From positions 62,001-126,000 of IMG/VR virus record IMGVR_UViG_3300027759_006101: a stretch of 64,000 nt of DNA; one strand, given 5' to 3'. Numbering within the stretch: position 1 is the stretch's first letter; each line of letters opens with the position of its first letter. Both the position numbers and the translations under genes were made by a program. Positions 3,879-49,273 of this stretch are shown here, one piece after another. The notes under the pieces were generated by a model, which saw only the letters and a program-made list of their open reading frames with translations, was not told the origin of the DNA and ran no database searches. The stretch is from a virus.

Positions 3879-4976
3879 TTAGTCCATTGGAAAAAGGATA
3901 TGCTTGAAATTTTCAGCTTCAAGCATTAACAAAATAAAATCATTATGTTTAATAAAATTGAGTCTTAACTTTTTACCATCTAACAATTCTAAAACTCTGA
4001 TTAGATGAGAAGACACATATGATACGGATAAAACTTCATAATTTTCAACTTCTATGGTATCAACGACAGCATTTTTTTCATTACTTGTTGCTGAAACTAT
4101 AAGCTTATTGATGTCTAAGGTCAAGTTTATCATATGAGAATTGGCAATACTTGATACGAACTTGACACTCTTAACTAATGCATCTTTTTCCAAATCCAGA
4201 GATAAAAAGAAACTATCACTAAAAAACTGATTGAAATTAGAAAATATTTTTTCGTAATTATTCTTCTCAAGACTACAAGAAAGTTCTCCGCCATCCCAAG
4301 TTAAATAAAGTTTATTATTAAAGAGTGAAAAAACGACTCCTGGTATTTTGTCAATATAGTAAAGAATTACATCTGAGATAGTTTTAGAAATCAAGTAAGA
4401 TGACTGCAATTCGTACTTTTTACCAAATACACTTATTCTATGTTTATCAGAAGATTGAGTGTTAATTTTACCATCTTCAAAAAACCAAAGTATAGAAGTA
4501 TAAGGATGTTCATCAAAATCAGGAGCGCATGAAAAAGAAGTCATTTTAATGCTGTGAACAAAATCTTCTACTGTAATTTCCAAAGTTTCTTCATTATTTG
4601 AAAAACTAATTACAAAATTATCTACAGGAACAGTTGCTAAAGATACTCTGGTTTTCTTGTTACCAAATATAAGCAAATTGTCTTCAGGATTGTAAATAAA
4701 TTGAACTTCTTCTGTTGGAAAGTTACTAAGTGCATTAAAAAATGAAGAGATGTCCAATCCAAAAGTACCATTTTCTGTAGATTGAACATTCTTAAGTAAA
4801 AATTTTGAACTGCAGAAATTATTCTCTGACTGGACATAAAGTTTTCCATCAATTGCGTGAAAAATAAGACTACTTGACGCAGCTTTATTCTCACGCATTG
4901 AAAGCTTTGATTTTTCAACTTTATTCAGTAATGCAAAACATACAAGATGCTGTGCCTTATTCAACTTAAATTTCAA
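3879..4976 (-). CDS. dnaN: DNA polymerase III beta sliding clamp (DnaN)
   Basis: 365 residues, matching the usual clamp length of about 366. The start is chosen as TTG at 4976, overlapping the purA stop as TTGA, with AAGGA 8 bases upstream; this gives an N-terminus MKFKLNKAQ like bacterial DnaN (MKF...). The middle-domain motif SSDKHRISVFG matches the ATDGHRL-type signature. The C-terminus (FILLMLEAENFKHILFPMD) matches the end of DnaN, where partner peptides bind. It should form a dimeric ring that tethers the DnaE polymerase to DNA. The longer ATG frame from 5036 would run deep into purA. Identification is strong for fold and context, though sequence similarity looks low. Confidence 0.85.
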   Translation of the reverse strand: MKFKLNKAQHLVCFALLNKVEKSKLSMRENKAASSSLIFHAIDGKLYVQSENNFCSSKFLLKNVQSTENGTFGLDISSFFNALSNFPTEEVQFIYNPEDNLLIFGNKKTRVSLATVPVDNFVISFSNNEETLEITVEDFVHSIKMTSFSCAPDFDEHPYTSILWFFEDGKINTQSSDKHRISVFGKKYELQSSYLISKTISDVILYYIDKIPGVVFSLFNNKLYLTWDGGELSCSLEKNNYEKIFSNFNQFFSDSFFLSLDLEKDALVKSVKFVSSIANSHMINLTLDINKLIVSATSNEKNAVVDTIEVENYEVLSVSYVSSHLIRVLELLDGKKLRLNFIKHNDFILLMLEAENFKHILFPMD

Positions 4977-5968
4977 TGTAGTTGTCCTTGGAATTGGATA
5001 AATATACCAGGAAGTACCATACCAACTTCTTTCCAAATATTAGAAACAAATGTATCTTCATTTGCACAAGAAATCAACATATTGTTTTCGTAATAATTCC
5101 AAGCACTGTCAACTTGTCGAAGAACATCCATTTTGTTGACAACAAGCTTAGTGACACCATTCATTTGACAAGCAGTTATAACTTCTTGGATGTTTAGCCA
5201 GTCAATTTGTCTTGGTCGTCCTGTCGTGGCTCCATACTCTTGCCCAATTTCTCTGAGCTGCTCAAATCGCTCGTCATCTTTTTGGTATCCTTTAGCTCCA
5301 ACATAGGTAGAATAACACTTGATAACCCCGATAACATCCCGTACTTGCTTATAATTGAAACCATTATTTAATACTGCTCCTACTCCGGTGTTTGAAGAAG
5401 TGACATAAGGATAATCACCAAAATCAATGTCAAGCCAATATCCTTGAGCACCTTCAGCTAAAAATTTTTTTGGGGAAGAATGAATTAGACTGTACATATC
5501 AACGAGATATGGTGCTAATTCTGGAACATCTTTAGCACGAAGACCTGTACGACCAACTTTGTCTTTATAACAAGGGCCATTTCCAGTTCGAGTTGTTCCA
5601 ATAGTTGTATCTTTGGAATCTTCGTCAATATGTTCTTGAGTAATTATATGGGCGTTTTCTGCAATCTTCAGAAGCGTTGTGTCAAATCCAAATCCTTCAA
5701 GATACGCAAGTTCGTCAAATAATTTTTGCGTATTGATAACACAACCATTACCGATGACACTAGGAATGCCATGCAGAATACCACAAGGAACCAAATGTGT
5801 AACAATTTTCTCTCCATTGAGGTAAATTGTATGACCGGCATTTCCTCCACCGTTAAAACGGACAACGTAGTCATACTCACCTGATGCAGCCATTTGATTG
5901 GCTATTTTGCCTTTTCCTTCATCGCCATACTGCATACCGATAACTACATCAACAATTGAAGTTTCCAT
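4973..5968 (-). CDS. purA: Adenylosuccinate synthetase, short PurA/PurZ type
   Basis: 331 residues, much shorter than bacterial PurA (about 430) and close to archaeal PurA and phage PurZ. It would join IMP (or dGMP, for PurZ) with aspartate using GTP or ATP. The P-loop-like start GMQYGDEGKGK keeps the Asp that is catalytic in PurA and that is replaced in characterised PurZ enzymes. Also present are GGGNAGHT with the catalytic His, GTTRTGNGPCYKDKVGR, AEGAQGYWLDID, the TSSNTGVGA loop, ATTGRPRQIDW and the base-recognition motif NKMDVL. The retained Asp favours adenylosuccinate synthesis from IMP. It lies between a small tag-bearing gene and dnaN, and its stop overlaps the dnaN start. Its role is probably purine supply; see findings for the Z-DNA question. 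Confidence 0.9.
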   Translation of the reverse strand: METSIVDVVIGMQYGDEGKGKIANQMAASGEYDYVVRFNGGGNAGHTIYLNGEKIVTHLVPCGILHGIPSVIGNGCVINTQKLFDELAYLEGFGFDTTLLKIAENAHIITQEHIDEDSKDTTIGTTRTGNGPCYKDKVGRTGLRAKDVPELAPYLVDMYSLIHSSPKKFLAEGAQGYWLDIDFGDYPYVTSSNTGVGAVLNNGFNYKQVRDVIGVIKCYSTYVGAKGYQKDDERFEQLREIGQEYGATTGRPRQIDWLNIQEVITACQMNGVTKLVVNKMDVLRQVDSAWNYYENNMLISCANEDTFVSNIWKEVGMVLPGIFIQFQGQLH

Positions 5969-6006: not shown

Positions 6007-6630
6007 TTACAATTCTATATCTTTTTCTTCGTCAAAAAACTCTCTATCATCCACACCATTGAATTGAACATCAACGTGGGCATCAGGGAATTTAAGTCTT
6101 ATTTTGCTTATTGCTGCTTCTGTGTCGTAATCTTCTAATGGTAAATTAGTGGTGAAAACAACATCGTGAGAAATTTCTTCAGCATCTTCTTCCTCACTAT
6201 ACATATTCTCTAACCCAGGAATTGAAAGTTGGTCTGTTAGCAATTTGCCTTCTTTGTCAGAACCTTTTGATAGTGCTTTGAAAGATAAAGGGTCCATAAA
6301 GAAGAATTTCCAAACACCATTTTCAGGAAATAATAAAATTTGAGGATAAAGCTCAAAATGCCTTCTTGTTCCTTTGGATCTTTCAACAAGTTGTTCCATA
6401 GGATCTTTTGTTGGATCAACAGTAAACTTTTCATCACCAAGAATATCTATTGGATCTCTTCTTTCTTTTCTTGATTTAGTAAGTACAAAATCTGATAATG
6501 TTTCGGGATTTTTATATACTGTATCAAAGTCCAAATCAGATGGATCTATGGCAAGTTTAGTCAACTTATCTGCCAATTTGTGTCTTCCAATACTGTCTAA
6601 AAAAGAAGCAACTCTTAATAGTATTTGCAT
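6007..6630 (-). CDS. Unknown protein with N-terminal 'LADKLT' tag
   Basis: 207 residues, not recognised. The first 28 residues (LLRVASFLDSIGRHKLADKLT) match the terminal tag seen at the ends of the two giant proteins at 12637 and 15485 and at the start of the protein at 58255. The rest is acidic, with an Asp/Glu-rich stretch near residue 145 and an acidic C-terminus. It sits between the SigH-like sigma gene (stop 4 bases upstream) and purA. No catalytic motif is seen. The tag suggests that it goes to the same place as the virion-like tagged proteins, despite lying among replication genes. Confidence 0.7.
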   Translation of the reverse strand: MQILLRVASFLDSIGRHKLADKLTKLAIDPSDLDFDTVYKNPETLSDFVLTKSRKERRDPIDILGDEKFTVDPTKDPMEQLVERSKGTRRHFELYPQILLFPENGVWKFFFMDPLSFKALSKGSDKEGKLLTDQLSIPGLENMYSEEEDAEEISHDVVFTTNLPLEDYDTEAAISKIRLKFPDAHVDVQFNGVDDREFFDEEKDIEL

Positions 6631-6633
6631 AAT

Positions 6634-7317
6634 CTATTTTTTAGGTAGCTTGTGAGATACATCCTGTTTTTCGTCTTCTTTAAATTGAGTATAGACTTCA
6701 GAAGCTTTTTTTCTAATTCTTGTAAGTGCGTTGTCTACACATTTAGCTGGAACTTGTAGCGTTTGAGAAATTTCTTTGTATGATGAGTTTTGGCCATACT
6801 CAACAAAAATTTCCGCTTCTAATGATGTTAATTTATTTAAAAGCATTGTTGAATTGATTTCAAGTTCTTCTCTTACAATTATATCTTCAACTAGATTGAC
6901 TTCAGGAGATTCATCGAAGGGGTTTTTCTTATCAGGTATGTAATCTCCAAGTGAATGAAAATTGCCATCATCATTTAATATAAATGGAGCATCTAAAGAA
7001 ACTGAATCATTCAACGCTGAATTTTTCATTCTTTTTGCCGATGCTATGGCTGTTGCTAAATGTCTCTTGCAAACAAGATTGACACAAAAGTTTTTAAATG
7101 TAGTGTCTTTGGTGCAATCATAGGAATTTACAGCTTTAAATACACCTAATCTCAATTCTTGCATCACATCTTCTTTATCTCCGCCAACAATAAAAAAGTG
7201 AGGTGCAATTTTCTTGAGATCTGGTTCTACCATCTTGAGCAGTCTTTTAAATGCTGCTTGATTTCCCGCTTTTGCTCTATTTACTAATCTGACTATTCTA
7301 AAATCTTCGGTTGCCAT
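6634..7317 (-). CDS. SigH-like RNA polymerase sigma factor
   Basis: 227 residues from the ATG at 7317, chosen because GGGAG lies 6 bases upstream; an upstream start at 7344 is less likely. Region 2 (FIVGGDKEDVMQELRLGVFKAV, then FKNFCVNLVCKRHLATAIASAKR) resembles Bacillus SigH (FIVG-ADREDL-QEG--GLFKAI). An acidic linker with SLDAPF follows. Region 4 (LTSLEAEIFVEYGQNSSYKEISQ, then VDNALTRIRKKA) again matches the SigH style. It likely directs a set of phage promoters. It follows the clamp-loader gene by 36 bases. Confidence 0.88.
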   Translation of the reverse strand: MATEDFRIVRLVNRAKAGNQAAFKRLLKMVEPDLKKIAPHFFIVGGDKEDVMQELRLGVFKAVNSYDCTKDTTFKNFCVNLVCKRHLATAIASAKRMKNSALNDSVSLDAPFILNDDGNFHSLGDYIPDKKNPFDESPEVNLVEDIIVREELEINSTMLLNKLTSLEAEIFVEYGQNSSYKEISQTLQVPAKCVDNALTRIRKKASEVYTQFKEDEKQDVSHKLPKK

Positions 7318-7353
7318 CAAAACTCCCGAAGGCACTTTCTTCACTACATCTTT

Positions 7354-10457: not shown

Positions 10458-10482
10458 TGTAAATAGTAAAATGTAAATAGTA
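10458..10482. promoter_or_regulatory. Direct repeat in the divergent intergenic region
   Basis: Two copies of the 11-mer TGTAAATAGTA (10458-10468 and 10472-10482), spaced 14 bases start to start, lie between the divergent genes at 10442 (minus) and 10482 (plus). The second copy ends at the ATG of the plus gene. A TAAAAT hexamer sits at 10467-10472, so the repeat overlaps a possible -10 element. It could be an operator or promoter element; the function is inferred. A third copy of the 11-mer occurs at 24-34 inside a coding region. Confidence 0.35.
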
Positions 10483-10823
10483 TGTGGTACAAATCTGCTC
10501 AAATGACCTTTATGCAATCCCCTGAAACAAATGAGGAATGGTTAAGCAGACATAAGGTTGAAAAAGATGGCGATAAATATGTTTTTTATCACGGGTCTAG
10601 AATAAAATTTACTGAATTAAGAGCAGGCTCATTACTTGCTACATCCCCTCAAGAAGCTGCAGATTTTGGCGATACAAACTTTTTCAACGATAGAAGAAAA
10701 ACTTTAATCATCTACAAAGTTTTAGTTTCTCCCGATGAAATAATCCCAGGCTTTTGGGCAAAAGTTAAAAATAATCATCCTGTAGAAATTTACTATAAAT
10801 TATCAAGAAAAAGTACATCATAG
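10482..10823 (+). CDS. Small ADP-ribosyltransferase-like protein with MWYKSAQ start
   Basis: 113 residues. After the N-terminal tag MWYKSAQ, residues 35-85 read KYVFYHGSRIKFTELRAGS, then LLATSPQEAADFG and LIIYKVLVSPDEII. This is the strand-H-G-[ST] / 'aTs-eeAa-fg' / 'vyeV-v-pd' pattern of ART-fold domains found in phage polyvalent proteins. The H of the H-Y-E type triad is present; the later catalytic residues are uncertain. It has no Shine-Dalgarno sequence and may be translated from a nearly leaderless mRNA (TAGT directly before ATG). It precedes the PcfJ-domain gene by 22 bases and is probably co-transcribed. Confidence 0.5.
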   Translation: MWYKSAQMTFMQSPETNEEWLSRHKVEKDGDKYVFYHGSRIKFTELRAGSLLATSPQEAADFGDTNFFNDRRKTLIIYKVLVSPDEIIPGFWAKVKNNHPVEIYYKLSRKSTS

Positions 10824-10845
10824 TTCACAATAAAGAGAAAAATAA

Positions 10846-12630
10846 ATGTGGTATTCTAAAACAATTTTAGCAGGAATTGAAGATGCGATTGAGGCCTTAA
10901 AAACAAAAGGCGTAAATGAAGAGATAATTAATTTTGTAACCAATCTTCCTGATGATAAAAAAGGTAAAGCTATTGGTGCGTTGAATCAAAATCCTTCTAT
11001 GATGATTGATGATTTGAAAAGTTTATTTCAATCCGGTTATAAGCCCTCAAGTCAAGAAAAGCAACTTGTTAAAGATTATGACCCAAGATTTCAAAGTTGG
11101 GCTTTGTATCAATATAAACTTTTGAGAGCTAATAAACTTACAGACGATCCTAATGACGACAGATGGGAATACAAGCAACCACTATCTGGCTATGCTGGAA
11201 TTAAAGACGATTTAGATGAAATTCACGACTTCTTTAGAGCACACACTTTAGACAATCCTAACTATAATCTTGGAACAAAATCATTCCAAGAAGCTTATGA
11301 TGACTCTGTTGAATGGCACAATGCTATGACAAAAAGAGGATCTGGAAAATTCTATTTACCATTTAAGAGAGATGAATCTGGAAATATAGTTGATGAAAAG
11401 ATTGTTCATAGATACGAAGATGGGTCTATGATGGTCAGAATAGACGATCCTAATGATTTAGATGTCGAAGGCAACTTTATGCATCACTGTGTAGGTTCAT
11501 ATGCAGATAGTGTAAAGTATGGAGACTGTACTATTTATTCCTTGAGAAATAAATATAATCTTCCTCAAGTCACAATTGAAGTAGACAAAAGTGGTGCAGT
11601 AAAACAAATCAAGGGACCAAGTAATAAATCTGTTGAAGATGATGAACAAGTAGAAAAAATTAAAGAATTTTTCGAAGGCAATGACAGTATCAAAAAAGAA
11701 TCTGGAGAAGGAATTGCCCATCAAAGAGCCAGAGATTGGTATCCTGCAGAAACTTATTGGGAAACAGGTCCAAAAGAAATTGGATATTCAATACACGAGT
11801 TTTCTTATGGTCCTTACTTAGCTGATTATGGTGATGGGTACGACAATACTCAATTTTCTCGTTTTGGTATTGGACCGACTGAATTTGACCAAGATGGATT
11901 TGGGAGAAAAAATCTTGAAAATGTTAATATGGATGAGTTAGTCAAAGAAACAACAGAAACGCTTGATAAGGGCTTAAGAGAGAAATACGAGTTAGATGAT
12001 TATAACTTTGAGAGATTAGCAGATATTATAGCAGAAGTTGGATATAATAAACTTGATTTAATGATTGATGATGTCTATGAATCAGAAGAAGATTTTTACA
12101 AGCAACATTCATATTATGTCCATAGATACGAAAATTACGAAGACTATAAAAAACAAAAAGCCCAACAAATACTAAGAAATAATCCATTGTTAGACTTAGT
12201 GTTTAATTTTGCAGAATCATTCAATCAGTTTTCAGAAAGTGTTAGAAATCCATATGACGATAAATATGAGCGTTTTGAAGATGAGAATGAATATGCAAAA
12301 AAAGCATTTGCGAAAATGCAAGATTCTGAATTTAGATTAAAAACAGAAATTGCTAAACAAGTTTATAATAACTATAGAGACAATCCAATAGTACAAAAAT
12401 TTCAAAATAAATTTGGAATGATATTTACTTTACCGGATACTACAGACATTCCTGAGACATACAAAGCACCAATGTCACTATTGACTAATACATACGAAGC
12501 ACCAACTCAACTAAGATTCCAAGATCTTCCAGAAGGTGGATCATTCAATTTAGCAAAGCATAGAAAAAATCAACAACAGAATCTTGAAGATGATAATTTA
12601 AAAATTCCTTTTGAAGATGATTTTGAATAA
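10846..12630 (+). CDS. PcfJ-like domain protein
   Basis: 594 residues. It starts MWYSK, like the other MWY proteins. A PcfJ-like core lies at about residues 190-265: FMHHCVGSYADSVKYG, then IYSLRNKYNLPQVTIEVD and VKQIKGPSNKSV. PcfJ-like domains occur in conjugative elements and in large polyvalent phage proteins; their biochemical role is not settled. The rest is charged, with Tyr/Asp-rich helices and an acidic C-terminus. A GAGA-type ribosome site sits upstream of the ATG. It converges on the giant gene at 12637 with only 6 bases between and no hairpin. Confidence 0.8.
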   Translation: MWYSKTILAGIEDAIEALKTKGVNEEIINFVTNLPDDKKGKAIGALNQNPSMMIDDLKSLFQSGYKPSSQEKQLVKDYDPRFQSWALYQYKLLRANKLTDDPNDDRWEYKQPLSGYAGIKDDLDEIHDFFRAHTLDNPNYNLGTKSFQEAYDDSVEWHNAMTKRGSGKFYLPFKRDESGNIVDEKIVHRYEDGSMMVRIDDPNDLDVEGNFMHHCVGSYADSVKYGDCTIYSLRNKYNLPQVTIEVDKSGAVKQIKGPSNKSVEDDEQVEKIKEFFEGNDSIKKESGEGIAHQRARDWYPAETYWETGPKEIGYSIHEFSYGPYLADYGDGYDNTQFSRFGIGPTEFDQDGFGRKNLENVNMDELVKETTETLDKGLREKYELDDYNFERLADIIAEVGYNKLDLMIDDVYESEEDFYKQHSYYVHRYENYEDYKKQKAQQILRNNPLLDLVFNFAESFNQFSESVRNPYDDKYERFEDENEYAKKAFAKMQDSEFRLKTEIAKQVYNNYRDNPIVQKFQNKFGMIFTLPDTTDIPETYKAPMSLLTNTYEAPTQLRFQDLPEGGSFNLAKHRKNQQQNLEDDNLKIPFEDDFE

Positions 12631-12636
12631 ATAAAA

Positions 12637-15492
12637 TTAAGTCTTTTTTCTTATCATATAGGTTAGTTTATCTGCTAACCTATATTCTTTTTTAAAATCT
12701 AGTTTTTGAGCAATTTTTAGCATAGATTTAACAGAAGCTAATACATCTTCATCATCTTCATCATCTTCATCATCATATTCATCTTCATCTTCTTCATCAT
12801 CTTCATCATCTTCATCATCTTCATCATCTTCAATGAGGTTTTGTTGATTTTGTGCTTGTGGTTGATATGGCCTGTTATATTGTTCTTGTCTATCTAATTG
12901 AAATTGTCTATATTCTTCCAATTTTTCTCTTGAAATATTTTGGAATAATTCTGGGTTTTGTTGTTTAAATTGAGGTGTAGTATTCATCAAAGGAATATAT
13001 TCTTTGAATAAATGTGGTTTTTGATTTGCAAAAATAGAAATCATACCAGGAGACAAATACTGTCGTGATGATTGTAAGATTTTGATAAAAGTTTGGTCCG
13101 AAAGTTTATTCAAAACCTCTGGATACCAAGAGATTAATGTTTCAAATTTACTCAAATCCCAAAAACTACTACTTAATTTTTCCAAAAGCTCAAATAATAA
13201 ATTTTCATCATTGTTATTACTAATTAAATTAACAATAAAAGTATTTGGCTTAAGAATTACAATACTTCTCCAAGCTTGACCAGAGTCTAAATATTCTCTT
13301 ATATTCTTAAAATATTTTTCATATTCATTAACATTTGTACGATCTAGCACAAAAGTCATCACGTCTTTACGTGCGTGTGACTTTACAATATTTACAAATT
13401 CATCAGAAGAAGATACTTCTTTTGGAAGATAATCAAAAAACATTGATAATCGTTGATATTGTTTGTCAGAATCTTCATCAACTTCATCTTCATCGTAGTT
13501 ATCATCATCTTCGTCACCTATAGGATGTAAAAGATGAATTTTTTTGAAAACACTACCAACTAATTTATCAAAATATTCGATTGATGTTTTCCAGAATTCA
13601 ATATTATTCTTATCATTAGCATTGACATCTGCATAATCATCCATCAAATAAATAATTCTTGTCAAATTATCCAAAATATTTCCAGGTTGAGATGGTGGAA
13701 GATTTTGATAATCTTTATAATCAAGATAATTTGCTTTATCTACTGCTTTGTAAACTATAAATTCAGGATCGTCCTTAAATTTATCAGGAACAATTTTCCA
13801 TAAATCCGACCATTTAGAAAGCTCATTAACATTAAAGAGCATGTCTATATTATATTTTTCATTTCTTGCTCTTTCTAATAATGGTGCTATTGCTTCTGGA
13901 ATTTGCAATAACAATCTTGTATTTTCTAAAGTTGGGTATTTTTTGTATACGCTTTCTATTCCTTTGATAATAGCTAACTTGTTTACAAATTCATCATTGA
14001 AATCTATTTCGGCATTATTATCAGTGTTTTTGAGTCCAATTTGAGGGAGAGCTATAGACCAGTTTTGAGGAAAATTTCTGAATTGCCCCCCTTTTGAAGA
14101 TCTATCTAAAATCTTTTGCTTTACTTCTTCATTATTAGTGTCAATATATTCGAGGAATGCAAAATTAGTATTTGCACCTTGTTCAACACCAGCAAGTTGT
14201 TGTTTTAAATAAGAATTTAGCAATTGTCTGTTTTTGCTAATTCTATCAGTTTGATTTTTTGGAAGAGTCAAACCAGTATTTACATATTGAACAAGAATAT
14301 TGTTTCCACCAGGAGTATCGAAAAGATAATTGAAAATTCTGTCAGGCAAAATCCAACCTGTTCCAATAAATTTAGACAAATATGTTTTTGCATCATCTGT
14401 CTCAACTATAATTTTTGAATACACTTCCTTAGAAGGATCATTGCCAAAAGGAATTTTAGAGACTATACGTTCTTCAGGTAAAATTAATGGATGATAACCA
14501 CGGACTTCATTTACAAAAGGAATAAATTTTCCTCTTTCTTGTAAAAAATATGCGTTATTTTCTTCAGGTGAAAATTTAATTTCAAATTTTCCCTTATCCC
14601 ACATTCTCAAATCTTCTTCAGTAAAGGGACTTTCACGTTTACCGTAAGCATAAGATTTTACATAATGAGATAATTCAGATATCAATCGCTCCTCTGGAGA
14701 TATGGGTTTGTTTTTTAAGATCTTTTCTTCTTTGCCAGTTTCAGGATTAATTGTTCGAGCGTCAATATTTACGCCTTTGCTCTTCAAATATTTAAGATAT
14801 GTTGGAATGTCTCTTCCGGTAATTGTTCGACCTTTGTACTCAAAAGAAATATCTTCAGTTAATTGTGGACCTGTTCTGTTAACTGTATCAGTGATTTTAA
14901 TATCTTTTGAATTATATTGCAATGCTACTTTTCTTACGTTAGATGTAGGAGGATTTTCATCCCAAACAATAAAAAATGTAGCAGCTTGATTACTTCTATA
15001 ACTTTGCCACATATTATTGGGGCCTTTGTAAGCTATACACCAAGAAGTATCAGCAGCTAAATCTTTGCTGTCCTGTGCTTTTTCTACCTTAAATATTTGT
15101 ATACCATCACCAGTCAAGACAGGAGTATGTTCCGAAATATCTGCTTCAGGTTGTACTTCTTGCTTTTTGACTATTGGGAATTTGCCGTGAACAAAATCTA
15201 TTAGCTCTTCTAAATCATTTAATTGATTATCATTTATAACAACAAAACTTTTAGATACTTTGATATTGGCTGGATTTAATTTTTTAATATTAATATATTC
15301 AGTAAGATGGCTAACAATATCATTAATAGCAAATTCATCAGAATCTCTTGCTAACATCCAAGCAGCAATAGGTTTAAAGACAGAACTATAATTATTTACA
15401 ATTTCTTTATAGCTGTTATAATCTTTTCCAACAGACTTGAAAATTGAAATAAATAATTCTTTATTTGCTATTACTATACGATTATTAAACAT
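12637..15492 (-). CDS. Giant 'WCIxYKG' domain protein with acidic tail and C-terminal tag (paralogue 1)
   Basis: 951 residues. Residues around 130-205 carry TSWCIAYKGPNNMWQSYRS, then TFFIVWDENPP and VRKVALQY. This module is shared with the next gene and is reminiscent of PcfJ-type 'C-x-G/A-Y' modules. Long helical repeat-like segments follow. Near the C-terminus is a run of about 30 Asp/Glu residues, then the tag KSMLKIAQKLD...YRLADKLT. The acidic run separates the tag from the body, as a flexible linker would. It is probably virion-associated or co-injected (inference). It overlaps the upstream paralogue by 8 bases (start ATG 15492). Confidence 0.75.
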   Translation of the reverse strand: MFNNRIVIANKELFISIFKSVGKDYNSYKEIVNNYSSVFKPIAAWMLARDSDEFAINDIVSHLTEYINIKKLNPANIKVSKSFVVINDNQLNDLEELIDFVHGKFPIVKKQEVQPEADISEHTPVLTGDGIQIFKVEKAQDSKDLAADTSWCIAYKGPNNMWQSYRSNQAATFFIVWDENPPTSNVRKVALQYNSKDIKITDTVNRTGPQLTEDISFEYKGRTITGRDIPTYLKYLKSKGVNIDARTINPETGKEEKILKNKPISPEERLISELSHYVKSYAYGKRESPFTEEDLRMWDKGKFEIKFSPEENNAYFLQERGKFIPFVNEVRGYHPLILPEERIVSKIPFGNDPSKEVYSKIIVETDDAKTYLSKFIGTGWILPDRIFNYLFDTPGGNNILVQYVNTGLTLPKNQTDRISKNRQLLNSYLKQQLAGVEQGANTNFAFLEYIDTNNEEVKQKILDRSSKGGQFRNFPQNWSIALPQIGLKNTDNNAEIDFNDEFVNKLAIIKGIESVYKKYPTLENTRLLLQIPEAIAPLLERARNEKYNIDMLFNVNELSKWSDLWKIVPDKFKDDPEFIVYKAVDKANYLDYKDYQNLPPSQPGNILDNLTRIIYLMDDYADVNANDKNNIEFWKTSIEYFDKLVGSVFKKIHLLHPIGDEDDDNYDEDEVDEDSDKQYQRLSMFFDYLPKEVSSSDEFVNIVKSHARKDVMTFVLDRTNVNEYEKYFKNIREYLDSGQAWRSIVILKPNTFIVNLISNNNDENLLFELLEKLSSSFWDLSKFETLISWYPEVLNKLSDQTFIKILQSSRQYLSPGMISIFANQKPHLFKEYIPLMNTTPQFKQQNPELFQNISREKLEEYRQFQLDRQEQYNRPYQPQAQNQQNLIEDDEDDEDDEDDEEDEDEYDDEDDEDDEDVLASVKSMLKIAQKLDFKKEYRLADKLTYMIRKKT
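12744..12831. repeat. Low-complexity GAT/GAA codon repeat (poly-Asp/Glu)
   Basis: Tandem ATCTTCATC-type units on the plus strand encode the Asp/Glu run of the minus-strand giant protein. Near-perfect 9-base periodicity suggests expansion by slippage. It is coding, not a separate element. Confidence 0.85.
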
Positions 15493-18400
15493 TGTATTTT
15501 CTCAATATATTTGTAAACTTATCTGCTAACTTGTATTGATAATTAAAATCTAATTTCTGTGCTATTTTCACCATTGATTTTACAAAGGCAGTAATAGGTT
15601 CTTCTTCTTCATCTTCTTCAGTTTCTTCTGACGCAAATGGATCAGGTAATTCTTCTTGTGTCCCAGGCGGTGTAGGTCTTTTGCCTTTCATCACTTTGCC
15701 AGTTTCTTCATCAAAATATCCAGTGCCATATTTTGATTTTCTTTCATATGCAAGAATTCTTGGAGCAAGGTTAGGATACATATGAACTAAAGCTGCCCTT
15801 ATTTCTGGCAATATATCCACATAAACATCTCTCTCTAAAATTCTCGTTTCAAAATATTTAGGATAATTTCTTAATAAATGCAATTGATGATTTAAATTTG
15901 GACGATTTCTAAAATAACTAAATATTCCTAAATTATAAAAATTTGGATCTTCTTTTACTTCTGGATAATGATGTGTATATATATCCAAAAATTCTAACAT
16001 AATATCTGGTGTAAAGTTGTTAAATGAATCAATTTCTTCATCACTAAATTTTCTTTTTTCAAGTATTTTTGAGAGGAATTCAAATGCATAACTTCTACCA
16101 CGATATAATACTCTGTAAAATTCAGATCTTACATTTCTTTCACCATCTAGAAATTGATTTATGTAGTCTTCATATAGCCAAGGTGTTTTTTCAATGTCTA
16201 TATTAGACATAAAATTCTTAGCAGAAATGCTGTTCATTCTTCTCTGCAAAAATTCTTTAATTTCAGGATCTTCTAAAAATTCTTGTGGAATAAACTTTAA
16301 AATGTTTGCAAAATCATTTTCACCAAAATTAAGTTCACTACCTATCCAATCAGCAAAATGATCTATATTCTTAAAGAAATTTTTCCAAAAATTTATATCT
16401 TGTATTGCATTTTGAAATTCTTGGATTGCATCTCTGAAATTTTCTTTTGCTTCATCACTCATCTCTAATTCTTCAAACTTCTTAAATAATTTGCCATCAT
16501 TATAAATAGCCCATAATAAAGTTTGATTTGCATTATTAGGAACAATTTCTTCTGGTCTATCTTTGTATGCGTAGTGTGCGTCTTTTAAGATTGTTTGTTC
16601 GTGTTCTTTAAGATCAAATGCAAAATTTATGGTTGGATTATCACTCCAATCAGAATGGTAACTTTCAGTAAATTCGTCATAATTATTAAAAGAAAATTCA
16701 CGCAAAACATCTACATTTTTAATTTGAGAAATTAACGAAAGATCAAATGGATCGTTAGAATTGTAATATTTAACAATTTTTTCGGAAGGTTTTGGACATA
16801 ATATTGAATACTTTACTTCTTCCAATACCCCAAGTTCTTTTGCTTTTTCAAAATCTTCTGCATTGAAACCAGTTGCCATTGCCACTTCTTTGATAAGTGA
16901 TTTATCCCCTGATTGCAATACGACATTTTTCAAATCTTGTTTTGGAAAAGCCGAAGTAAAATCTACTAAATCTTTATCTGTCAATCTATTTTTTGCATAT
17001 AATAAATATAATTCAGGAAATTTAGGATCTTCGAAAATAAAATTTCGTATACCATTTGGAACAAAAGTTTTTACAGTGCTAATATATTTTATCAACAAAT
17101 CTCTGTCGTTTAAATCCAACAATAAATCGGCATCAGCAGTTTCGGCGTATGTTGAACCTGATTGCAAATAGTCTTTTTCAATCAAAGTTTCAAGATAAAT
17201 TCTCAATAAATCTGGTTTTTTTCTTAAGTCTTGTCTAGCAACTTCATTTATACCGCCCTGTTTTTCAATTAATTGTTTAAATAAATCTTTTCTATTTAAG
17301 TTTATTAAATCAATTTGCATAAGAGGGCTAAATCTTCTACCAGCTATAATTTGACTTCTTAAGTATGAAGTAAGTAAATTTTTGTTATTTCTAAAAAATT
17401 GATATTGCGTTTCAGAAAGTTGCAAACCAGTGTTGACATATTTCATCAACAAATCTTCACCACCAACACTTCTAGATAAATATTCTAAAACTTCATCTTT
17501 TACACGTTTGCCTAAACCCATCCATCTCGAAGTATAGAATTTAGCATCAGGGTTATTAAGGATGTACGCAATACCAGATCTATCTGAAATCTCTTCTATA
17601 ATATCTAAACTATTTTTATCTATTCTTTTTATGTCACTATCTTCGCCATTGACTTTAGATTTTCCAGATTGCCATAAAAGAATATCTTCCACACCCAAAG
17701 CAGCTATATAATTGAATGTGCCATTTTGTAATCTTTCTTCTGTAGTTTTGGGTTTGTTCTTGAGAATTAATTCTTCTTGACCAGTTTCGGGATTTTGTCT
17801 TGTTGCCTGTAAATTAATTCCCTTACCAGTCAAGTATTCAGAATATTTATCCCAATCCCATCCATTTGAAAGTTGATGTCCTGTCATATTTGGAATGTCT
17901 GTTAATAAAACATTACCTGAAGCAAAATCAAGAGCAACTTTTCGTTGATTTTCTGTAGGAGGATTATTATCAAAAACTACAAAAAAAGAAGCATCGTGCG
18001 AATCTCTATAAGATTGCCACATATTATTTGGGCCTTTATAGCCGATACACCATCTTGTATCATCACCAACTAATCTTCTACCATCGTTGGCATCATTTAT
18101 CTCAAATATCTTAATGGAATTATCTTTATTTGCTACAACAGGAACATCTTCAATTTCAGTATTTTCAGCCTGTTTTTCAGCTTGCAAAATAGGAAATTGA
18201 GCGTGGATATATTCTGTTAGTTTAATTGCATCATCAAAAACTTTATCGTTTATTTTGACAGCTTTTGCGCCAACTGAATATTTAGTAATTCTTCTTGAGT
18301 CAATATATTTTTGTATAGCTTCAATATATTCATTTGGTTCAATATTACGGGCCAATAACCAAGCAGCAAATACTTGATACTTTTGATCATATTGCTTTAC

Positions 18401-18511
18401 TGTTTCTCTTAAGTCTTGATAATATTCTGCATCTTTGCCCAAATGATTACAAATACCTTGAATATCTTCTTTTATGCCAGCTGTAACAATCCTGAGACTA
18501 TACCTTTTCAT
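15485..18511 (-). CDS. Giant 'WCIxYKG' domain protein with acidic tail and C-terminal tag (paralogue 2)
   Basis: 1008 residues, paralogous to the downstream gene. Shared blocks include an N-terminal helical region with AAWLLARN, then TRWCIGYKGPNNMWQSYRD, SFFVVFDNNPP, RKVALDF and LTGKGINLQATRQNPETG. The middle is a long helical, repeat-like region. The C-terminus has a shorter acidic run (EETEEDEEEE) followed by the tag KSMVKIAQKLD...YKLADKFT. The order body, acidic linker, tag is the same in both paralogues, which argues that the tag is functional. No catalytic motif is recognised. The start is the ATG at 18511. Confidence 0.75.
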   Translation of the reverse strand: MKRYSLRIVTAGIKEDIQGICNHLGKDAEYYQDLRETVKQYDQKYQVFAAWLLARNIEPNEYIEAIQKYIDSRRITKYSVGAKAVKINDKVFDDAIKLTEYIHAQFPILQAEKQAENTEIEDVPVVANKDNSIKIFEINDANDGRRLVGDDTRWCIGYKGPNNMWQSYRDSHDASFFVVFDNNPPTENQRKVALDFASGNVLLTDIPNMTGHQLSNGWDWDKYSEYLTGKGINLQATRQNPETGQEELILKNKPKTTEERLQNGTFNYIAALGVEDILLWQSGKSKVNGEDSDIKRIDKNSLDIIEEISDRSGIAYILNNPDAKFYTSRWMGLGKRVKDEVLEYLSRSVGGEDLLMKYVNTGLQLSETQYQFFRNNKNLLTSYLRSQIIAGRRFSPLMQIDLINLNRKDLFKQLIEKQGGINEVARQDLRKKPDLLRIYLETLIEKDYLQSGSTYAETADADLLLDLNDRDLLIKYISTVKTFVPNGIRNFIFEDPKFPELYLLYAKNRLTDKDLVDFTSAFPKQDLKNVVLQSGDKSLIKEVAMATGFNAEDFEKAKELGVLEEVKYSILCPKPSEKIVKYYNSNDPFDLSLISQIKNVDVLREFSFNNYDEFTESYHSDWSDNPTINFAFDLKEHEQTILKDAHYAYKDRPEEIVPNNANQTLLWAIYNDGKLFKKFEELEMSDEAKENFRDAIQEFQNAIQDINFWKNFFKNIDHFADWIGSELNFGENDFANILKFIPQEFLEDPEIKEFLQRRMNSISAKNFMSNIDIEKTPWLYEDYINQFLDGERNVRSEFYRVLYRGRSYAFEFLSKILEKRKFSDEEIDSFNNFTPDIMLEFLDIYTHHYPEVKEDPNFYNLGIFSYFRNRPNLNHQLHLLRNYPKYFETRILERDVYVDILPEIRAALVHMYPNLAPRILAYERKSKYGTGYFDEETGKVMKGKRPTPPGTQEELPDPFASEETEEDEEEEPITAFVKSMVKIAQKLDFNYQYKLADKFTNILRKYNV

Positions 18512-18598
18512 AACATTTTTATTCCATTATTTAGTATACAGTTTCCTATTTTTAGCTTATCAGAAGGAACAAATAATTCTTGAATCAAATGAATTAGT

Positions 18599-19075
18599 AT
18601 GTGGTACAGAACAGCGCAATCAACTTACGAAATTCATCCAAAGGAAGATCAAGCCAGAAAATACTATGGTATTACTACAAATGCATACAAAGCTGGCTAT
18701 ATATTAAGAGATGGAAAATTTCTTGATTATTCTGAAGGGCAACCTGAAAGAACTTTAGACCATAGAGATATACAAAATATTATGGATGATCCTGAAGAAT
18801 CTAAAGGTGATAGATATTCTGATTATGTTGAACCATTTCTCAATCTAACAGGTGCAATTAGAGCTTCTTATCAAAATGGTGAATGGAGTGTTGACTTTAA
18901 TACAATTCCCACAAGCAATCAAATCAGTGAAATACTAAAATGGGTCATTCCAGGCAAATATTTCCATTATGATATAGAACCGCTTGGAATTAAAAGTTCT
19001 ATAGAAAATGCTAATAAAAGAAAAGTTGAGAATAAGCTTGAGGAAATAAGAAATCTTTTATCAGGTGTAATGTAA
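18599..19075 (+). CDS. MWYRTAQ-start protein with 'GYILRDG...LDHR' domain
   Basis: 158 residues. The N-terminus is MWYRTAQS, the short AQ tag. Residues 30-60 (AGYILRDGKFLDYSEGQ, then RTLDHRDI) match a domain common in phage and polyvalent proteins ('GyIl-dG--lD-S------DHR-I'). Its function is unknown; the conserved Asp/His could be catalytic. It is a single plus-strand gene between two minus-strand genes and ends in a strong terminator. There is no Shine-Dalgarno sequence; TTAGT directly precedes the ATG. Confidence 0.7.
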   Translation: MWYRTAQSTYEIHPKEDQARKYYGITTNAYKAGYILRDGKFLDYSEGQPERTLDHRDIQNIMDDPEESKGDRYSDYVEPFLNLTGAIRASYQNGEWSVDFNTIPTSNQISEILKWVIPGKYFHYDIEPLGIKSSIENANKRKVENKLEEIRNLLSGVM

Positions 19076-43257: not shown

Positions 43258-44381
43258 ACAGGTTTTCCACAAGTATCACATAAGTCAAAATTTTCAGAAA
43301 GATATTTTTTCAAACGCTCAATCTCTTTGTTGCTTTCTAAAATAATTTTGTTTTCATCAGACGTGTTTTTTTCAGTTTCGCTAATACTATCAGATACTTC
43401 TTGCAAACATTCTTTAAGTTCATTAGCTAGAGTGTATTCTAATTGAAGTTTCACAGATTCTGAAATTAAGTTACCAATGGTTCCTTCAGAAATTTCAAAA
43501 TATTTTTCGTATTGCTTTTTGGACTTGAAAAAATTATCTCTTGCTTTAGAAATTTCTTCAATCATTTTCAATCCATCTTCTATATCACTGAATGAGTCTT
43601 CCAAAAGTGGTATAGATTCTGAGAAAAAATTAATTAGTACGCTCGTATGATTTATTTCATTTTTGCAGTCTCTAACTCTATTGATTAAGGTTGCAATATC
43701 ATTGAAAAAAGATTTGGCATCGTGTATGTATGTTTCACAATCTTGATATTTATTTATCAAATCATTTAGTTTTTCTAAACTTTCTAGCTTTTCATCAAGT
43801 CCTTCAAAAGGTTCTAATTTCTTTTTTGTATTTTCGATTTCAGTATTTGCTCTTTTAATATCACCAGAAATTTTATTTATATCAGAACCTAAATTTGATG
43901 CAGCTTCTTCTAAATCGTGAATGCCTAATAATCTGGAAATTTCCTTTGGTAGAGCTTCGTCGCTTAGATTGATAAGGAAAAGTTTATCTTCTTGATTGGC
44001 AAAAGAAAGAGCGCCAGTTGAAGTTTTAGGAATGTGACCGAGAAAGTCTAATGCTTCTTGTGGAAATTGTTTAGAGAATCTTGAATGTTTTTGTAATTCT
44101 TTACCAGCATATTGGAATTCAAGCTCATTAGTATCGCCCTTGATTCTTTTGTAGTAATCACCATTTTTAAAATTTATAGTGATTTGAGCGTTCTTTTGTC
44201 CATCTCTTACATCTTGTTTTCTAAAGATATCAAGAAATGCTGTTGAGAGGGATCTGAATAATCCAGATTTGCCACTATCGGAGCTTCCTGTTATCAAATT
44301 CAAACCTGGATATAGTTTGATGTGAGTATCTTGGTGATTTTGAAAATCCTGTATGCGTATTGATTCTATATGCCTATTCAT
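43254..44381 (-). CDS. SbcC/Rad50 N-terminal piece ending at the zinc hook
   Basis: 375 residues. Starts IESIRIQDFQNHQDTHIKL and has Walker A (TGSSDSGKSG, residues 31-40) and a Q-loop-like ALSFANQEDKLFLI. About 200 residues of coiled coil follow. The last residues are DLCDTCGKPV, a CxxC zinc hook at the extreme C-terminus. Normal Rad50 continues into the returning coil; here the polypeptide stops right after the hook. The partner half is at 41293. The start overlaps the upstream stop as ATGA. Confidence 0.92.
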   Translation of the reverse strand: MNRHIESIRIQDFQNHQDTHIKLYPGLNLITGSSDSGKSGLFRSLSTAFLDIFRKQDVRDGQKNAQITINFKNGDYYKRIKGDTNELEFQYAGKELQKHSRFSKQFPQEALDFLGHIPKTSTGALSFANQEDKLFLINLSDEALPKEISRLLGIHDLEEAASNLGSDINKISGDIKRANTEIENTKKKLEPFEGLDEKLESLEKLNDLINKYQDCETYIHDAKSFFNDIATLINRVRDCKNEINHTSVLINFFSESIPLLEDSFSDIEDGLKMIEEISKARDNFFKSKKQYEKYFEISEGTIGNLISESVKLQLEYTLANELKECLQEVSDSISETEKNTSDENKIILESNKEIERLKKYLSENFDLCDTCGKPV

Positions 44382-44863
44382 CGCAAAATTATTGTAGACA
44401 AAATATCTGGAAAATGCAAGTCAACAAAGTTAGATCTTGCCCTTAATATGCTAGAATTAACTTGAGTAACATCTGGAATTTCGATTTTGTACAGCTCTGC
44501 TTTATTAATCTTTATGGGAGAATTTTCTAAAGAGCAGCATTTAGATGATTTGCCATTGTGTATTTTATTGCAAGACATACAAGTAAAGTCATTGCTTCTA
44601 AAATGTGGAATGAAATATTGGACACTATAATTAATTTCTATCTTCTTAAATCGAATATAAGAACTGCCAGAAAAATCTTTATTAGTGCTGCAAATCTTAC
44701 GAAAGCTTGTTCCACTACATTCTACCAATATCGTTGCTGGAACCATTATAGAATAATCTTTTGTAAAAACAAGTTTAGTATCTGACAAAATTCCTGGGCT
44801 GGCTAAGCATCCTAAAATTTCGTTATTTGATATTATGAATCTGTGCAGAGATGGCAAAAGCAT
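44378..44863 (-). CDS. Unknown zinc-ribbon-like protein upstream of the Rad50 N-piece
   Basis: 161 residues from the ATG at 44863. A zinc-ribbon-like motif CMSCNKIHNGKSSKCCS is at about residues 105-122. The rest is strand-rich and not recognised. The ATGA overlap with the Rad50 gene shows coupling. It starts 2 bases from the divergent plus-strand gene, marking the right end of the minus-strand replication block. The upstream TATATTTATTTTCATA is AT-rich and may hold a promoter. Confidence 0.6.
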   Translation of the reverse strand: MLLPSLHRFIISNNEILGCLASPGILSDTKLVFTKDYSIMVPATILVECSGTSFRKICSTNKDFSGSSYIRFKKIEINYSVQYFIPHFRSNDFTCMSCNKIHNGKSSKCCSLENSPIKINKAELYKIEIPDVTQVNSSILRARSNFVDLHFPDILSTIILR

Positions 44864-44864
44864 T

Positions 44865-45062
44865 ATGAAAATAAATATAGACAGGGATATGTTGTTAACT
44901 GAATTATACGATTTACGGTCAGTTTTGGCTGAAGCATCATTAATTTCGGATGAGGCTAGAGTTGGCAAAGAAAAATTAGACAAAATTATAAATCTAATTA
45001 CAAATTGTCCTCAAGCTGAAGGCAACTCATCATATCCTAAGCCAAAGTTAAGGAGAGGGTAA
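44865..45062 (+). CDS. Small unknown coiled-coil protein
   Basis: 65 residues from the ATG at 44865 (MKINIDRDML). Helical, with a basic C-terminus (KPKLRRG). It overlaps the next gene by 1 base (TAATG). Not recognised. Confidence 0.5.
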   Translation: MKINIDRDMLLTELYDLRSVLAEASLISDEARVGKEKLDKIINLITNCPQAEGNSSYPKPKLRRG

Positions 45063-45301
45063 TGACACAGAATAGACTTAATGATTTGAATGAAAAAATA
45101 GAGAAAGAAACTATTTCTCTAAATGAAGTAGCTGAAATTTGTAGCGCTGCTTTAGAATCTTCCAGCAAGCATTCTAAAGATATCAAGAATATGCTTAAGA
45201 GTTTCGAAGAAAAATTATGTTCTTTAGAACAAAAAATCCAAGAATTAGAAGATAAATCTAATCTTGGATTTAGTGTAATTTTAGAAGATGAGGAAGACTA
45301 A
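45062..45301 (+). CDS. Small unknown coiled-coil protein
   Basis: 79 residues: coiled coil (LNDLNEKIEKETISL; LKSFEEKLCSLEQKIQELEDK) and an acidic end. Coupled to the gene before it. Convergent with the gene at 45298. Confidence 0.55.
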   Translation: MTQNRLNDLNEKIEKETISLNEVAEICSAALESSSKHSKDIKNMLKSFEEKLCSLEQKIQELEDKSNLGFSVILEDEED

Positions 45302-45765
45302 ACTTCCTCATCTCTAGTTTTAATTCTGACTACAAAAGGCTGGTCTGTTTCATAACTCGCCCAAGTATTAGAATCCAATTGATATACATCTGAGGATCCT
45401 GTATATGGACAAACAATATTGATATCGTCATCCATACTTTCGATAACTAAGTTTACAACTGCAATCCTATCTCTAATTTTTCTGTCAGTTGCTTCATTTG
45501 ATGTTGAGTCATAATCACTATCAATAAGCCCCAAAGAACGCTCACCTTCTTCTGTAAGGTCTTCATCATCAAAGTCATCTAATAAATCAATGTCATCAAT
45601 AGGCACTTCTATTTCTAACATTTGACCATCTTTCTCTACTAAAACAGTGTGAGTTTTCATATTGTGATAAGTATTATCAACATCCATCAATTCTGCTAAA
45701 GCTTCTTCTGATTGACGCTTAGCAGTAAGTTCATCTACTATAATGCCTTCTGTTTTTCTTTCCAT
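45298..45765 (-). CDS. Unknown acidic protein
   Basis: 155 residues, not recognised. A strongly acidic centre (DDIDLLDDFDDEDLTEEGE) and a strand-rich C-terminal part containing VCPYTGSSDVYQLD. It follows the exported-protein gene by 7 bases and converges on the plus-strand pair. No enzyme motif. Confidence 0.6.
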   Translation of the reverse strand: MERKTEGIIVDELTAKRQSEEALAELMDVDNTYHNMKTHTVLVEKDGQMLEIEVPIDDIDLLDDFDDEDLTEEGERSLGLIDSDYDSTSNEATDRKIRDRIAVVNLVIESMDDDINIVCPYTGSSDVYQLDSNTWASYETDQPFVVRIKTRDEEV

Positions 45766-45772
45766 AATATTC

Positions 45773-46618
45773 CTATGCCATATTATCAGTAAAATAATTT
45801 TTTAGTTGAAAATCTAATCTTATTGGGTAGTTCAATCCACCTAAAGGAATGAACGTAAATGTTTCAGCTTTGTTTTTTTCAACATAGACTGACAACACTT
45901 CATAAGTTTTTTTAGCTGGTAATAGTTTTGTCGTATGTATTATACCTCTATGAGAAAAAACAAGTATACCTTTTCCACCCCTTGGGGAAAATGAAAGTTT
46001 CAAAATTCCAGTCTGTTTTGGATATACTTGAATATTTATATTAGAGCCATACTGTCCATCAACTTTACCATCAATAATTTCACCAATATTAAAACTATTT
46101 TTTTGATCTAATGATAATGCAAAATTTTTATTTATTTCATAGTCAAGCTGATAAACATCTAGGCTATTTATTTTATTATTTTCATTACCGATTTTGCATA
46201 TGACATTTGTTCCCTTTTCAATTTCTCCTTCAAAAATTCCAGAAATAGTTTCTTCTGGTTCTAAGACAGAATATATATTAAGAAATGTGAATATGACAGG
46301 ATTTGTAAAAAAATTTTTTACCGCAAAAGCTCCTGCATATTCTGGGCTATTATGAGAACTAAATGATTTTTTCAGATTCTTTATTTTTTTATCTGATGTC
46401 ATATAAAATTTCTGATTTTTGTCAGTCCCATTTTTGTAATGGACAAAGTATCGAACTTTAGAATTACTTGTATATTTTTTTTGATGAAGTATTCCAGAGA
46501 TTTTAACTGTTTCGGGGTTATTCAAGTATAATAAATAATTATTATCCAAAGAATATAAAGATAATAGCAATACGACTATCGCCTTTACAGATAAGAAAAG
46601 TTTGTGAGTTAACGCCAT
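45773..46618 (-). CDS. Exported protein with N-terminal signal segment
   Basis: 281 residues from the ATG at 46618, chosen for GGGAGGA 6 bases upstream. The N-terminus THKLFLSVKAIVVLLLSL is a signal peptide or anchor. The mature part is beta-rich with little Cys (FVHYKNGTDKNQKFYM; FSPRGGKGILVFSHRG). It would act in the envelope or outside. It resembles a host-type secreted protein rather than a virion part; family not recognised. It is divergent from the 848-residue virion-like gene. Confidence 0.65.
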   Translation of the reverse strand: MALTHKLFLSVKAIVVLLLSLYSLDNNYLLYLNNPETVKISGILHQKKYTSNSKVRYFVHYKNGTDKNQKFYMTSDKKIKNLKKSFSSHNSPEYAGAFAVKNFFTNPVIFTFLNIYSVLEPEETISGIFEGEIEKGTNVICKIGNENNKINSLDVYQLDYEINKNFALSLDQKNSFNIGEIIDGKVDGQYGSNINIQVYPKQTGILKLSFSPRGGKGILVFSHRGIIHTTKLLPAKKTYEVLSVYVEKNKAETFTFIPLGGLNYPIRLDFQLKNYFTDNMA

Positions 46619-46724
46619 TGTTTCCTCCCTTAAGAATAACCTAACACACAATTATTTATTCTATATTGTAGGAGCAGAAACTTAGGGAGAAGAAAAAATA
46701 GATATATCACTTTCGAGTTCAACT

Positions 46725-49271: not shown

Positions 49272-49273
49272 AA

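Follow-up and report, generated by a model that had tools for sequence, protein, structure and literature searches.

Mutually substituting terminal tags and a mobile cassette of giant proteins in a phage genome

The five-gene island and its giant proteins

We analyzed a 64,000-nucleotide stretch of DNA (the window), which corresponds to bases 62001-126000 of the 358,269-base virus record IMG/VR IMGVR_UViG_3300027759_006101 and contains an island of five genes spanning 10482-19075 (8.6 kb; positions are those of the window unless marked as record positions). Two of these genes, which share an 8-base overlap, encode the giant proteins A and B, and a plus-strand gene for a PcfJ-family protein converges on them. 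The remaining two encode an ADP-ribosyltransferase (ART)-like protein and the GYILRDG protein (Table 1). All five proteins carry at one end one of two unrelated peptides, the ADK tag or the MWY tag, which recur elsewhere in the record and across related phage records. The genes that flank the island, dUTPase and clamp loader on one side and ribonucleotide reductase on the other, are untagged.

The open reading frames, the alignment and a structural model of giant A agree with the architecture proposed in an earlier note on this DNA, namely two giant paralogues each built from a body, an acidic linker and a common tag. Giants A and B are 29-33% identical and align along their full length. Inspection of the alignment reveals an invariant core, DTxWCIxYxGxNNMWQxYR...NPPTxxxRKVA...TD..N.TG, which includes the WCI-Y-KGPNNMWQSYR module and the RKVAL strand that had been singled out in both proteins. 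The C-terminal tags of the giants read FVKSMVKIAQKLDFNYQYKLADKFTNILRKYNV and SVKSMLKIAQKLDFKKEYRLADKLTYMIRKKT, and Asp/Glu-rich linkers precede them. The AlphaFold model of giant A, built on 15 relatives (predicted local distance difference test, pLDDT, 66; predicted template modeling score, pTM, 0.40), begins with helices followed by an alpha/beta WCI region (residues ~130-230) and continues with a short-helix array (321-928), which a disordered acidic linker (929-973) joins to the two-helix tag (974-1005). Compared with known structures, the body in this model of pLDDT 66 reached at best a Z of 7.5 with a root-mean-square deviation of 5.9 over 199 aligned residues, which lies within the helical-repeat background. 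Foldseek and VIA-align searches with both models likewise gave only generic HEAT/ARM-like helical-repeat matches at background level.

Two tag classes and their exchange on orthologous proteins

The ADK tag is a two-helix hairpin of ~33 amino acids (aa) with the consensus xxLxKIAxxLDxxxxYxxADKLTxIxxK, found at either the N- or the C-terminus. Tags were counted among 342 called proteins from ~280 of the 358 kb, while matches to the tag profile, a hidden Markov model, cover the whole record. On this basis 20 of the 342 proteins bear the ADK tag, 17 at the N-terminus, three at the C-terminus (the two giants and a protein of 193 aa encoded at record position 298703) and none internally, with a joint chance probability of about 1e-13 for these terminal positions; at equal threshold, matches were absent from both the reversed and the 10x shuffled versions of these proteins. 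Over the whole record the profile matched 21 places at E values no higher than 10, and 19 of these reached E <= 1.1e-4. A second, retrained model recovered the identical 20 proteins, together with one weak match in the reversed set (E 0.095). The common C-terminal tag that the earlier note saw on the giants is thus far beyond chance, and its carriers are more numerous than was recognized there. Tag residues are conserved between N-terminal and C-terminal copies and across genomes; the consensus tag, searched as a short query with the filter on, had no match among isolate phages.

The second class is the short N-terminus MWY[KRS], in its fuller form MWY[KR]xA(Q), which occurs on 15 proteins; MWY is found nowhere else in 87,000 residues. 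Genes with WY at positions 2-3 number 15 against 0.17 expected (P 2e-24). The start pattern was found 13 times in this record versus 0 in the reversed control, and 30 versus 3 times in five relatives. The two tags are mutually exclusive, with no protein labeled by both, and together they mark 35 of the 342 proteins, about a tenth. All five island genes are among them, in the order MWYKSAQ start, MWYS start, ADK end, ADK end and MWYRTAQ start (P 9e-6 given 35/342).

Most of the tagged proteins that were scanned match nothing; the exceptions with known domains are MWY-tagged, namely a NUDIX protein (E 1.5e-17) and an ART-PolyVal protein (E 2.7e-10). The head gene cluster of the record, which comprises terminase, portal and a head maturation protease (phrog_18299, E 3.7e-20; L114:1855-5994, record 43855-47994), holds tagged genes at record positions 50528 and 61590 (MWY) and 56369 (ADK). 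Untagged are a tail-fibre-like block at 242-278 kb of the record and the replication genes of the window, including those for DNA polymerase, RecA, clamp loader, ribonucleotide reductase and dUTPase. Two side observations concern the head cluster itself. The protease match is confined to the first ~240 residues of a 1379-aa protein, whose MYRVAKGG start recalls the MWYR tag, and the portal protein (L114:6118-8499, record 48118-50499) has a C-terminal extension that resembles REase_MTES_1575/DUF559 nucleases. Beyond this record, MWY starts and several ADK tags are present in every one of seven additional records retrieved with the ADK tag, and record G001 likewise carries both types. Since a WCI giant is present in only two of those seven, the tag system is wider than the giants.

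Orthologous proteins exchange one tag for the other. The DMSVP family, which adjoins PcfJ in relatives, begins in record L007 with an ADK tag, ...YKLADKLDRIAQ, joined directly to DMSVPYYRYP, and the equivalent layout is found in L093, L095, L097 and L101. In L100, L006 and L096 the body instead follows an MWY tag, as MWYRKAQ (or MWYRLAQ, MWYRFAQ) joined to DMSVPFYRYP at the same junction residue as in the ADK form; bodies of the two forms are 49-82% identical. A WCI giant of 780-784 aa in the two divergent records G010 and G011, 26-31% identical to A and B over the WCI part, starts with MWYKFSK and has no detectable ADK tag. Its gene, too, faces an MWY-tagged PcfJ gene in convergent orientation (34-35% identity), so that the giant-PcfJ pair is conserved across the exchange of tags. 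For one further ADK-tagged protein, the N-terminus of an orthologue differs. Because they swap on orthologous proteins, the ADK and MWY tags appear to do the same job.

The mobile cassette and the relatives of its modules

In each close relative that reaches those ends (L005-L009; blastn), DNA similarity begins at 10827-10840 and stops at 18551. The effector-like island of about 8.6 kb described in the earlier note does exist as a discrete entity and is mobile, but the unit that is homologous in relatives is the narrower stretch 10835-18551. Gene order in close relatives is NUDIX(MWY), MLKKS, ART-PolyVal(MWY), MEEFF, one or more ADK genes, DMSVP, then PcfJ(MWY) converging on giant B and giant A, pseudopilin and HAD, which places the cassette within a cluster of tagged genes, beside ART-PolyVal. 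In the present genome the corresponding island lies at 137.9-152 kb of the record and lacks the genes for PcfJ and the giants; these are found at 72-80 kb instead. The cassette moves as one block.

The DNA encoding the tags of the two giants forms a direct repeat. Giant B is absent from L008-L010, and giant A of L008 and L009 ends in a B-type tag, as is expected if recombination between the tag repeats removed giant B; the repeats are thus an apparent deletion seam in these records. G001 holds three tandem giants, all three C-tagged (G001:C1:34.1-42.5 kb). A side observation is that L011:4406-8008 contains two tandem PcfJ genes, which together with the giants of G001 amount to lineage-specific duplication of both cassette partners.

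Upstream of giant A, the 40 bp before the start codon (ATAGGAAACTGTATACTAAATAATGGAATAAAAATGTT-ATG) are near-identical in relatives, and the DNA beyond is unrelated. The motif GAATAAA[AT]A, noticed post hoc, stands ~12-13 nt before the start codon of eight genes, including giant A (18512-18525). Seven of the eight are tagged when g231009, with a divergent ADK tag assigned by eye, is counted, and six otherwise (Fisher P 5e-7 or 2e-5). As a general promoter of tagged genes the motif was rejected: it is strong at about seven genes but absent from most tagged ones, with no enrichment over the remaining tagged genes (P 0.24). It may be a promoter or a (leaderless) start-site element.

The phage-borne pseudopilin that adjoins the cassette in relatives belongs to type IV and has both a prepilin and an H-X9-DG motif. 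It is encoded in this record at L048:16190-17086 (record 142190-143086) and is also found on the flanks of L005-L012, L093 and L094. Its best relatives are in Armatimonadota metagenome-assembled genomes, so that, judging from this single gene, this giant phage probably infects Armatimonadota.

Sequence searches with the giants against Pfam, PHROGs, NCBIfam, PADLOC and PDB came back empty or with noise, and the proposal that the giants are polyvalent proteins found no backing in the form of a significant Pfam, PHROG, NCBIfam or PADLOC domain in either. The WCI module has a distant relative in Salicola phage SCTP-2 gp40 (hhalign E 3e-6; BLASTP 4e-7 for the single pair). Like the giants, gp40 has a WCI core, ETRWCISxxGSDNxFxxY, but at 378 aa it is too short for the ~600-residue body, and the alignment covers the module core only. 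A distant search from gp40 gave no additional relatives, and the WCI family has no relative in a collection of 84,980 bacterial and archaeal species genomes.

The plus-strand neighbor, previously described as PcfJ-like, carries a bona fide PcfJ domain: its HHCVGSYAD module matches Pfam PcfJ PF14284 with E 2.3e-13 and 50.7 bits, above the curated cut-off of 25. It differs from the PcfJ family in being phage-borne, in an extra helical C-terminal half and in its MWY N-terminus, a start that all PcfJ orthologues in relatives have. We know of no function assigned to PcfJ, and our literature searches for PcfJ in phages, which covered open-access papers, found nothing relevant. The kinship suggested between the WCI and PcfJ modules fared less well. 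Both have a C[IV]G core and a compatible predicted order of strands and helices. A Pfam scan of the giants gave no match to PF14284, and hhalign comparison reached a best probability of ~1% or less, with control regions equal or better; narrow and widened family alignments were both no better than unrelated regions. Profile comparison at control level neither shows nor excludes the relationship.

A link to known polyvalent ARTs comes from an island neighbor in this genome, L048:13862-14947, which matches ART-PolyVal PF18760 (41.6 bits versus a cut-off of 31.2, E 2.7e-10). The ART-PolyVal protein of L102 (47.6 bits, PF18760) runs on into a homologue of the 10482-10823 protein of the window (66% over 110 aa), and this homology begins immediately after the MWY of the latter. 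The fusion ties the ART-like protein of the window to the polyvalent-type ART.

Elsewhere, the window encodes a 331-aa adenylosuccinate synthetase-like protein (4973-5968, minus strand) that stays under all curated cut-offs (PurA 280 versus 402; PurZ 121 versus 300). It also has two sigma-factor-like genes on the minus strand, of which 2302-2868 matches Sigma70_r4 and 6634-7344 was assigned by eye only. In front of small untagged genes at record positions 155-162, 175-187 and 197 kb there are recurrent TTGTCAA / TATGATATACT-like boxes, which resemble an early sigma-70-type promoter. A full-length phage GroEL is encoded at L052:8976-10589 (record 214976-216589).

Table 1. Features of the island, cassette and tags, in window positions
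Feature	Position	Strand	Basis
Giant A, 1008 aa: WCI module, alpha-solenoid, Asp/Glu linker, C-terminal ADK tag	15485-18511	-	ORF (open reading frame) list, alignment, model
WCI module of giant A, residues ~120-235; distant relative SCTP-2 gp40	17807-18154	-	alignment, model
Helical repeat (HEAT/ARM-like solenoid) body of giant A, residues ~256-928	15728-17746	-	model m4bb5aebe2bde
Disordered acidic linker of giant A, upstream of ADK tag	15593-15727	-	
C-terminal ADK tag of giant A, residues 975-1008	15488-15589	-	
Giant B, 951 aa: WCI module, helical body, Asp/Glu linker, C-terminal ADK tag	12637-15492	-	ORF list, alignment
WCI module of giant B, residues ~120-260	14713-15135	-	alignment
Asp/Glu linker of giant B, before ADK tag	~12739-12846	-	
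C-terminal ADK tag of giant B, residues 919-951	12640-12738	-	
PcfJ-family protein, 594 aa, N-terminus MWYSKTILAG, PcfJ domain residues 122-267	10846-12630	+	
ART-like protein, 113 aa (YVFYHGSRIKF...), N-terminal tag MWYKSAQ	10482-10823	+	weak PHROG match 1.5e-4
GYILRDG protein, 158 aa, N-terminal tag MWYRTAQ	18599-19075	+	
Mobile cassette: PcfJ gene converging on giant B and giant A, plus 40 bp upstream of giant A	10835-18551		blastn boundaries
Direct repeat copy 1 (giant B tag-coding DNA), 124 nt, 73% identical to copy 2	12646-12769		
Direct repeat copy 2 (giant A tag-coding DNA)	15497-15620		
Conserved 40-bp upstream element of giant A, ends GGAATAAAAATGTT-ATG	18512-18551	-	
N-terminal ADK tag of 207-aa protein 6007-6630	6535-6630	-	
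N-terminal ADK tag of 465-aa protein 58255-59652	58255-58356	+	

Possible roles of the tags

In phage T4, the protein Alt and the internal proteins IPI-III carry a short N-terminal capsid-targeting propeptide. By analogy, the reading we favor, with a probability of roughly 45%, is that the ADK and MWY tags are capsid-targeting-like signals that load injected host-takeover proteins into the head. The likeness to T4 lies in a short terminal peptide common to unrelated phage proteins, including an ADP-ribosyltransferase, and in a genome that encodes a head maturation protease. Unlike T4, two unrelated, swappable tags are present here, one of them a two-helix hairpin and also C-terminal, and many more proteins are tagged. 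Propeptides proposed to target the prohead also occur in the giant phage SPN3US, N-terminal ones as well as one at the C-terminus of its protease (PMC7411985). There too, N- or C-terminal segments are proposed to direct proteins into a giant-phage prohead, whereas the SPN3US propeptides, on several head proteins, are 111-130 aa long with a T4-like cleavage motif and the present tags are short, with no motif established.

Head loading is the best candidate because of the T4 and SPN3US precedents, the presence of an ADP-ribosyltransferase among the clients and the tagged genes in the head cluster. Whereas the tags, their exchange and the mobility of the cassette are shown, targeting to the head or virion, injection and an effect on the host are inferred, with the terminal tags and their swaps as new indirect evidence for virion entry. 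The swapping of such unrelated peptides on orthologues is most simply read as both addressing one sorting machinery, which would recognize either tag and, as the T4 capsid-targeting sequence does, recruit proteins into the assembling head. Tagged effectors, including the giants, the PcfJ protein, the ADP-ribosyltransferases and others, would then travel in the virion and pass into the host along with the DNA. Within the giants, the acidic linker may act as a flexible spacer that separates body and tag, the solenoid may bind a host or phage target, and the WCI module may supply a conserved activity. Polyvalent proteins (PMC5512222) are likewise large multi-part proteins with predicted entry alongside DNA, and the tagged ART-PolyVal (PF18760) neighbor in relatives, also found in this genome, provides a link to them. 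In contrast to polyvalent proteins, the giants have no recognized catalytic or polyvalent-associated domain; the polyvalent-protein paper makes no mention of PcfJ (PMC5512222).

Several points weigh against head loading. The tagged NUDIX enzyme is not an expected virion protein, the cassette of the window is located among nucleotide-metabolism genes, and tag junctions, although often [IL]A[QMED], establish no shared cleavage motif. To our knowledge, C-terminal tags on non-protease cargo are also unusual among known capsid-targeting sequences.

The main rival reading, possible if rather unlikely, is that the tags instead attach proteins to one shared hub in the infected cell or to a compartment that the phage makes there, such as a replication compartment or membrane site. 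Swappable terminal tags on otherwise unrelated proteins would suit any docking system, and the NUDIX hydrolase and ART-like enzymes could act inside the cell. The natural clients of a replication compartment (DNA polymerase, RecA, the clamp loader, ribonucleotide reductase and dUTPase) are untagged, however, which speaks against that address, and the head cluster holds tagged genes. We give little credence to the tag as a phage-internal regulatory or quality-control element, that is, an oligomerization, chaperone or protease adaptor site on early-expressed intracellular effectors. Helical hairpins are common oligomerization elements, a terminal peptide behind an acidic linker resembles an adaptor and the phage has its own GroEL, yet such a role does not predict that a ~7-aa MWYRxAQ peptide should stand in for the 33-aa hairpin.

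Very improbable is a reading in which the tags share no protein-level function and are either seams of recombination or mobile stretches of coding sequence multiplied by duplication. The 124-nt direct repeat of tag DNA and the loss of giant B in L008-L010, which resembles tag-repeat recombination with a B-type tag left on giant A, would fit such a reading; conservation of residues across N- and C-terminal copies and genomes, strict terminal placement and replacement by the unrelated MWY peptide at the same junction argue against it. Least credible of all is that the giants, which have no recognized enzymatic domain, are ordinary hypothetical paralogues with a repeated domain and a coincidental neighborhood, given that the convergent giant-PcfJ pairing is retained down to ~27-35% identity despite tag exchange and that the cassette moves as one block.

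Peptides that target proteins to the head from a terminus are known as such. Searches of open-access papers for such tags or for two-code packaging returned no description of two that are interchangeable, occur on about a tenth of the proteins examined and have C-tagged giants of a mobile cassette among their clients. Tentatively, and with less assurance than for head loading as such, we suggest that in this clade of large uncultivated phages, probably of Armatimonadota, the two unrelated, interchangeable tags would form a general address code. By this code about a tenth of the proteome examined, comprising the two WCI-solenoid giants, PcfJ, polyvalent-type ADP-ribosyltransferases and many small proteins, would be loaded into the virion and injected. 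Even if docking takes place elsewhere, two unrelated and mutually substituting peptides point to one receptor. If the tags are virion-loading signals, the injected-effector complement of uncultured phages would be readable directly from sequence, and laboratory systems could use the tags to bring proteins of choice into phage heads. The PcfJ and WCI families would, in that case, gain a testable role in host takeover.

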